A stretch of 59,326 nt of DNA from Gammaproteobacteria bacterium (GTDB lineage Bacteria > Pseudomonadota > Gammaproteobacteria > Pseudomonadales > Azotimanducaceae): NCBI GenBank assembly GCA_002704225.1, contig PAFU01000043.1, positions 1-59,326 on the forward strand, given 5' to 3'. The notes below the pieces were generated by a model. It saw nothing but the letters and a program-made list of their open reading frames with translations, had not been told where the DNA came from and did not search any database. Shown here one piece after another: positions 6,493 through 7,303 of this stretch (position 1 is its first letter; each line of letters opens with the position of its first letter). The position numbers were made by a program, and so were the translations under genes.

Positions 6493-6572
6493 TGGGTGTC
6501 TGTGTCTGCGACCGGGTAGTAGTAGCCTTAGGAGTAAGTGTCCACCGCAAAACGTGTAGGAGCGGCCTGTGA
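6492..6572 (+). CDS. possible 26-aa coupled small ORF
   Basis: A 26-codon frame starts at an ATG overlapping the stop of the aldo/keto reductase (TAATG), with GGAGG at 6481-6485 seven bases upstream. It ends in a TGA that overlaps the GTG start of the peroxiredoxin-like gene (GTGA). The peptide contains CVC and a short hydrophobic VVVALGVSV run. It may be a genuine small protein, a coupling peptide that carries ribosomes to the next gene, or chance. I recognise no family. Confidence 0.3.
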   Translation: MGVCVCDRVVVALGVSVHRKTCRSGL

Positions 6573-7303
6573 GCTTAACCCTGTCAGCAGTTGGGCTGTG
6601 TGTTCTGATCGTGGCTTGGACCGTGTGGCTCAAAAAAGCCTTTCGTCAGGCTTTGCCGAGAAATCTTCTTGGGTTCGCTGTGTCGATGTTTCTGGGTCTT
6701 GGTTTAGTCGCTTCCTCTTTTTTCTTTGAAGTTACGTCCCTGAGCGGCCTGATCGCCCTGCCTGCATTGGCTTTAGGTCTTTTTTGGTTCGCTTCAGCTG
6801 CGTTAGGCGGACAAAAAACGAACGTGCCCAAAATTGCCGTTGGGCAACCGCTCCCAGAGTTTTCGGCGCTAAACGAAGACGCCTCGATGTTTCGCAGTGG
6901 GGAAATGGAAGGCTCACCCTATTTACTTAAATTTTTTCGAGGTCATTGGTGACCTTACTGTGTGGCCGAGCTTAAACGCTGGCAAGAGCTTCGGTCGGAG
7001 CTCCAGATTTCACTCAACATGATTGCTGTATCACCGGATTCCCCCAAGGACATATCCAAGAGCAAGGGCCAACATGGGCTGCAGGCCCGAATGCTGTCGG
7101 ATCAGAGCTTAGCAGCGACCACTGCGTTGGGTTTAAAGAATGTGGGCACCAATATGCCTCCGCGTGCGCTGCCGGTACCAACGTCGATTTTAGTCAGTGG
7201 CGAAGGGATTGTGCTATGGATTGACCAAGCGGAGCACTATACGGATCGTTCTGATACCAGCGTCTTAAAGGCTGCGCTGGATACGTATTTAGACTGCACC
7301 TGA
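6569..7303 (+). CDS. peroxiredoxin-like selenoprotein candidate (in-frame UGA = Sec128)
   Basis: Read through the TGA at 6950-6952, this is a continuous 244-codon frame. Residues 1-80 form three predicted membrane helices (about 3-21, 33-53, 60-79). The basic loop between helices 1 and 2 and the basic segment after helix 3 suggest that the following domain faces the cytoplasm. Residues 85-244 are an AhpC/TSA-type peroxiredoxin-like domain. The active-site segment reads FFRGHW-[UGA]-PYC-VAEL, so the UGA sits exactly where family members carry the first cysteine of Cys-x-x-Cys; Cys131 is the resolving partner. The downstream 116 residues, including LPVPTSILVSGEGIV, are intact. The GTG start has AGGAG at 6558-6562. 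A SECIS-like hairpin follows the UGA. The alternative is a nonsense mutation, which would leave 127 residues without an active site. Confidence 0.8.
6963..6997 (+). promoter_or_regulatory. candidate bacterial SECIS hairpin
   Basis: Directly downstream of the in-frame UGA the mRNA can fold a stem: 6964-6969 pairs with 6991-6996, a bulged U at 6990, and 6970-6973 pairs with 6986-6989. A U-G pair at 6963/6997 can extend it. The 12-nt apical loop (6974-6985, AAACGCUGGCAA) contains G residues and begins 22 nt after the UGA, within the distance expected for bSECIS elements bound by SelB. The stem lies in coding sequence, as bacterial SECIS elements do. Folding was done by eye. Confidence 0.55.

Follow-up and report, generated by a model that had tools for sequence, protein, structure and literature searches.

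The window, the whole 59,326-nt stretch of DNA that was analysed, carries on its forward strand a gene whose product would be a membrane-anchored redoxin and whose reading frame contains one in-frame TGA. The features of this locus, given as positions in the window, are:

6558..6562, + strand: AGGAG, probable ribosome-binding site, read from the sequence, 6 nt before the GTG
6569..7303, + strand: gene for a very probable membrane-anchored redoxin selenoprotein, GTG start, TGA stop at 7301-7303, 244 aa with Sec as residue 128
6572..6643, + strand: predicted transmembrane helix 1, residues 2-25 (AlphaFold2 model, mean pLDDT 88.7; hydropathy)
6668..6724, + strand: predicted transmembrane helix 2, residues 34-52 (AlphaFold2 model; hydropathy)
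6737..6805, + strand: predicted transmembrane helix 3, residues 57-79 (AlphaFold2 model; hydropathy)
6839..7273, + strand: redoxin (AhpC/TSA, thioredoxin-like) domain, residues 91-235 (PF00578, PF08534; Foldseek 3hjp Bcp4)
6950..6952, + strand: TGA very probably read as selenocysteine, first residue of U-P-Y-C
6962..6980, + strand: site at which 39 of 43 genes have a hairpin that fits the bSECIS model; the window gene has no fitting hairpin at this site
6965..6983, + strand: hairpin 1, GCC.AGC-UUAAAC-GCUGGC with a bulged G, predicted fold, sequence the same in 4/4 clade members
6986..7003, + strand: hairpin 2, GAGCUUC-GGUC-GGAGCUC, predicted fold, the same in 4/4 clade members, and the same 18 nt in the gene of genome G395

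Between the GTG at 6569 and position 7303, the only interruption of the frame is the TGA at 6950-6952, within FFRGHW-U-PYC, which bears out the claim of an earlier note on this DNA that the frame is open on both sides of this codon. The read-through product matches two Pfam models that span the TGA, AhpC-TSA PF00578 over residues 91-217, at 66.3 bits against a cut-off of 26, and Redoxin PF08534 over residues 91-235, at 57.9 bits against a cut-off of 26.6. With this domain above the gathering score and a UPYC motif, it falls among the Prx-like UxxC redoxins (PF00578). On base composition alone, the 116-codon stop-free run after the TGA has a chance of about 1%; homology on both sides of the TGA, together with conservation in relatives, weighs far more than that figure. 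Neighbouring genes in the window encode an aldo/keto reductase, a PF02390 methyltransferase, a MatE transporter, and DUF3604 and GH43 proteins, types that recur in 2 to 4 of the 43 stretches compared. A conserved operon partner across the family was sought and not found; the best recurring neighbour is DsbD, in 6/42 loci, and many flanks are short, so absence means little.

The AlphaFold2 model of the product (39 rows; pTM 0.80) has three helices and, after them, a redoxin fold in which residue 128 immediately precedes the helix 129-145. Its best PDB matches in Foldseek are peroxiredoxins of the Bcp/Tpx/AhpE kind (top match 3hjp, Bcp4, E 2.8e-11, TM-score 0.83 by target length), whereas in a sequence comparison the top match of solved structure is ResA (4nmu, E 1.4e-12). 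Canonical peroxiredoxins carry the motif PxxxTxxC together with an active-site Arg, and both the Thr and the Arg are catalytic. In profile alignments with peroxiredoxins, Sec128 lies opposite a Thr (5enu) or Ser (2cx3) and Cys131 opposite the Cys, which we take to be the peroxidatic one; in those with ResA, the two residues lie opposite its first and second Cys, respectively. Pro204 aligns with the Arg of 5enu and with the Pro of ResA, presumably the thioredoxin cis-Pro. The canonical peroxiredoxin motif is absent: the Pro, Thr and Arg of 5enu are replaced by Arg124, Sec128 and Pro204.

These alignments bear on how a true selenoprotein of this kind would work. One account is that it acts as a peroxidase, with Cys131 as the peroxidatic residue and Sec128 as its resolving partner. 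While the structural matches to peroxiredoxins and the position of Cys131 on their presumed peroxidatic Cys are consistent with this account, Sec128 and Pro204 occupy the places of the Thr and Arg in the 5enu alignment. Moreover, P202 and P204 are invariant in the 39 rows of alignment A4 (the window protein and 38 of 42 TGA loci; L086, L092, L093 and L099 left out), as expected of thioredoxin-like reductases. We consider peroxidase action possible and rather doubtful. A thiol:disulfide oxidoreductase-like cycle appears more likely than direct peroxidase action, since the peroxiredoxin Thr and Arg are replaced and UPYC and Pro204 align with the CxxC and Pro of ResA. The description of the gene as peroxiredoxin-like in the earlier note therefore stands for the fold; for the activity, the oxidoreductase-like cycle is the better guess.

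The three-helix membrane anchor that the earlier note had described agrees with the model and with hydropathy. Its view that the anchor makes this version unusual did not survive comparison, as hydrophobic N-terminal stretches of the same kind are seen by eye in the TGA-form relatives whose sequence includes the start and in the two closest Cys forms. Positive-inside charge counts for 41 of 43 genes place the redoxin domain inside in 18 and outside in 23, with the window gene counted as inside. Among these 41 genes, groups differ in the charge pattern of the anchor, which looks as though the protein were inserted in opposite directions.

The DsbD gene lies upstream on the same strand in loci L073, L081, L087, L092, L095 and L096, and the encoded proteins have DsbD_TM and Thioredoxin_7 domains in 6/6 and DsbD_N in 5/6. 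Five of these loci are from Myxococcota (named or assigned), and two have identical redoxins. All six DsbD-linked redoxins count as outside by charge, and five form one tree branch (support 100/99), with L073 in the wider group. DsbD may feed this group of redoxins; for the window gene, thioredoxin is as likely a donor as DsbD.

The TGA is kept among relatives. In the same family, a homologue was found in 14/150 genomes (E <= 1e-15), with TGA at the same codon in 14/14, and the protein of the partial gene from the same-genus genome G021 is 77% identical to that of the window gene, with the same TGA. A scan of genome_contigs gave 46 loci, several of them from the same genomes as the family set, with TGA at the site in 42. 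The other four are L110 and L112, which have Cys at the site and match only partially at 26% identity, and L109 and L111, which look broken and lack the motif. In L111 the middle, including the Sec site, is missing, and the start and end of the frame are still joined. Locus L093 lies on a contig titled as a Klebsiella pneumoniae MAG; its homologue groups with those of unclassified Proteobacteria MAGs and has a further in-frame TGA, and it is perhaps from a misnamed bin.

At the level of the order, 81/390 genomes match (E <= 1e-20), and the best seven matches are TGA forms. Next come L119 and L120, Cys forms with E of about 1e-50 that match over nearly the full length, including the membrane part, and below them lie many weaker matches. 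All 23 further order-level loci read at the site (L119-L141) have Cys; for L129 this is a reading of the frame by eye. Two weak order-level rows with a TGA, from G519 and G282, have no WxP motif in the stretch examined. The alignment of homologues that the earlier note had named as a check thus gave Cys at the UGA column in distant homologues, in keeping with its placement of the UGA at the first position of the family Cys-x-x-Cys.

In a tree of 74 of 75 rows (L104 left out; L129 not included), one group (support 100/99) unites 49 Sec rows with 2 Cys rows, and the Cys pair lies beside a Sec row (96/94). With a root set by midpoint only, this grouping would fit a single Sec family in which Cys was regained. 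Myxococcota and Gammaproteobacteria are intermingled in this group, and horizontal transfer is therefore likely, as judged from the tree. A second redoxin from the window genome, on contig C41, sits on a branch of length 6.13, and its placement is meaningless.

Additional evidence for recoding came from the DNA just after the TGA. Across 43 genes, codons +3 to +9 are nearly fixed in their synonymous choice (TGT 42/43, GCC in 41/41 Ala, GAG 43/43, CGG in 37/39 Arg, CGA 38/43), and each is narrower than the genes' own usage (p <= 0.0005, 2000 draws). The draws ignore the relatedness of the genes, which makes these p-values too small, and p <= 0.0005 is likewise seen at codons +11 and +28; that seven consecutive codons are affected therefore carries more weight than the p-values. 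Constraint at the RNA level just after the TGA was found in the 43 genes and also within the window's own clade. In most relatives, codons +3 to +9 form a hairpin, UCGCCG-AGUUR-CGGCGA, 12-30 nt from the UGA. Its pairs are standard in 99.6% of 224 cells (32 distinct rows) of alignment A2, which holds 35/43 genes and leaves out the four of the window clade and the extra-codon loci L090, L095, L098 and L108. In L102 and L103 both sides of one pair have changed; 4/7 pairs are invariant, and 46/500 shuffles reach this one both-side-changed pair.

The bSECIS model, as given in the consulted part of a review (PMC13188914), has a loop of 3-9 nt, a stem of 4-16 bp, a G in the first two loop positions, a spacing of 16-37 nt and an MFE <= -7.5. 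Applied with our own script, these rules fit 39/43 genes, always at the same place and with a spacing of 16. The rules alone are weak evidence, because 119/543 other positions in the same genes, taken as a control, fit them too.

The standard model fits none of the four genes of the window clade (the window gene, L067, L068 and L104). Nevertheless, the 54 nt from the TGA on are 96-100% identical in the five pairs of this clade compared, against 69-96% for other 54-nt blocks of the gene in the closest pair and 48-85% in the four wider pairs. Two hairpins are predicted in this stretch. Hairpin 1 of the window gene has no G at the start of its loop, and the GGUC loop of hairpin 2 begins 40 nt after the UGA, compared with the published range of 16-37. 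The more distant gene from G395 also fails the rules; it shares the 18 nt of hairpin 2, where all six codons are identical, and differs in the first part. The RNA of the window gene folds no better than shuffles (z -0.67), and, since folding-energy z-scores of single sequences are weak evidence, folding energy was rejected as proof of a SECIS. A changed reader was also considered: by eye, the last 62 residues of SelB show no sign of an altered RNA-binding end that would lie behind the odd SECIS, and the ordinary look of the C-terminal domain in the window lineage argues against it. As a tentative model, one we hold to be improbable though worth stating, the window lineage may have lost the standard hairpin, and Sec insertion may be directed by, or may need, the GGUC hairpin 2 beyond the published spacing.

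Another redoxin gene with an in-frame TGA (FYRGHWUPYCRRL), this one for a soluble protein, is found elsewhere in the genome, at L034:3412-3885 (G000:C41:87411-87881). It is unrelated to the window gene, and no NCBIfam model fits it. Redoxins of this C41 type match in 61/150 family genomes, with an internal TGA in 62/62 places and the TGA at the motif in 30/30 read. The C41 redoxin, too, fails the bSECIS rules. In alignment A5 (27 of 30 rows), the first hairpin of this family covaries, with 8 double-change cells compared with 0/500 shuffles. Its second hairpin lies at 37-54, where the codons CGC and CGT are each found in 26/30; the stem of 37-42 against 49-54 is paired in 98.6% of 144 cells, with no double changes and 170/500 shuffles as high. 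In the wide family of the window gene, covariation does not support hairpin 2 as a general part of the element, 82.8% of 192 cells being paired against a shuffle mean of 83.9. On the tentative model above, the conserved hairpin of the C41 Sec redoxin at the same place would suggest a two-hairpin SECIS class in these bacteria; hairpin 2 as a recoding signal is a reading and not a result.

The earlier note had called the gene a probable selenoprotein and had pointed to the Sec machinery of the genome as a check. The machinery is complete, with each component above its curated cut-off: selA (Pfam SelA, 464.9 bits, cut-off 22.8), selB (TIGR00475, 398.6 bits, cut-off 242.25) and a tRNA-Sec with anticodon tca (ARAGORN; RF01852, 72.4 bits, cut-off 47), the product of selC, on contig C19, and selD (258.3 bits, cut-off 125) on contig C35. 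These contigs are separate from that of the window, in an assembly whose completeness is estimated at 97% and its contamination at 6.65%. Both SelB and a TGA-form gene, partial at a contig end, are also present in G021, a genome of the same genus (99% complete, 1% contamination).

Across the order, Sec machinery follows the Sec form, with exceptions. At E <= 1e-60, SelB was found in 12/14 TGA-form family genomes and in 4/5 further order genomes, 16/19 together, and in 0/27 of the Cys-form genomes tested (23 read at the site and 4 taken as Cys for having no internal stop), which were drawn from the 74 order genomes that match but lack the TGA form. The presence of SelB is not by itself a predictor of the gene, since 20/20 tested family genomes without the gene have SelB too. 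The exceptions are G079 (87% complete), G069 (77%) and G362 (100%, 6 contigs), which have the TGA form and in which neither SelB nor tRNA-Sec was found, the latter at E <= 1e-8. G362 is the strongest counter-example. Its locus, L118, keeps the TGA and an intact standard hairpin in a near-complete genome, and the gene there seems unreadable; recent loss of the selenocysteine trait or a missing contig would each account for this.

G362 bears on the proposal that the TGA is a recent nonsense mutation, such that the gene is decaying or only a 127-aa membrane piece is made. In that genome the TGA may indeed be a stop, and the broken appearance of L109 and L111 is also what decay would produce. However, 43 genes share the TGA at this codon and stay open over a long stretch 3' of it (L093 having its further TGA), the G021 protein has diverged to 77% identity with the same TGA in place, and the 54 nt from the TGA are constrained. 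The case foreseen in the earlier note, that relatives would have a stop with no downstream conservation, does not apply: the TGA is kept and the sequence after it is conserved. A nonsense mutation is, on this evidence, very improbable. Reassignment of TGA to an ordinary amino acid such as Trp in the window genome would also let the in-frame TGA be read through, but it is the most improbable account of all and was rejected as a genome-wide change, as TGA serves as a stop in window genes (5/15 picked genes, including the redoxin gene, end in TGA, and the other 14 have no internal TGA), the aligned residue elsewhere is Cys and not Trp, and a tRNA-Sec with anticodon tca is present.

The window gene is thus very probably a selenoprotein gene, with the UGA at 6950-6952 read as Sec in a membrane-tied UPYC redoxin. 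This reading draws on the conserved TGA, the Cys of distant homologues, the sel machinery, the constraint on the DNA after the TGA and the predicted fold. The ribosome would read this UGA as selenocysteine delivered by the genome's SelB and tRNA-Sec, and insertion would be directed by an RNA element in roughly the 54 nt from the UGA on. The product would have three membrane helices and then a redoxin domain, in which UPYC performs selenol/thiol redox chemistry. In the putative catalytic cycle, Sec128 would be the attacking nucleophile and Cys131 would resolve the mixed bond; the resulting selenenylsulfide may then be reduced by a donor of the thioredoxin or DsbD type. The most likely activity would be the reduction of disulfides, or of peroxides through them, at the membrane.

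UxxC Prx-like selenoproteins have been described before. In the portions of the sources consulted, 22 Prx-like sequences are listed for the Sargasso Sea set (PMC1088965), Prx-like 1 (225) and Prx-like 3 (68) for the GOS set (PMC2398784), and such proteins again in a 2026 review (PMC13188914). Like the window protein, they are marine bacterial members of the redoxin family (PF00578) with Sec in UxxC, as described in these portions. They differ in that a membrane anchor goes unmentioned: the word "transmembrane" does not occur in the main text of PMC1088965, nor "membrane" in that of PMC2398784. Neither a membrane-anchored form nor a two-hairpin bacterial SECIS is named in the titles and abstract openings surveyed.

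Other known systems are more distant. SelL-related redox proteins (NCBIfam NF040769) match weakly over residues 94-191, at 23.1 bits against a cut-off of 120. ResA and DsbE (CcmG) are thioredoxin-like with a CxxC that aligns with the UxxC, and ResA is the best solved sequence relative, but the window protein scores far below their NCBIfam cut-offs (22.8 against 170 for ResA, 24 against 359 for DsbE). Whereas ResA has a single membrane anchor, the window protein has three predicted helices. The peroxiredoxins Bcp/PrxQ, AhpE and Tpx are the closest PDB folds, but the Thr of their TxxC and the aligned Arg are replaced. The Cys-form membrane redoxins of the same order (L119, L120) are similar in their near full-length match, hydrophobic N-terminal part and W-C-P-Y-C; they and the more distant L121-L141 have Cys instead of Sec, and in the genomes tested no SelB was found at E 1e-60. 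The window protein stays below the cut-off of every NCBIfam model. For 39 members, the best NCBIfam E-value, 5.2e-18, belongs to a thiol peroxidase model whose cut-off is 140 bits; in this comparison by E-values only, the match is taken as below that cut-off. We judge that UxxC Prx-like selenoproteins as such are established and that the membrane-anchored form, which no NCBIfam model fits, is what appears to differ.

Gene finders that stop at the TGA split the locus into a membrane fragment of 127 aa and a detached stump, which makes the anchored redoxin subfamily easy to overlook in annotation. This redoxin uses Sec in nearly all close relatives seen, across Gammaproteobacteria and Myxococcota. 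The window clade provides a natural instance of a SECIS that changed within a gene family: the standard hairpin is retained in related genes but not in the clade itself, so that matched genes are at hand for a direct test of the published rules on spacing and loop.
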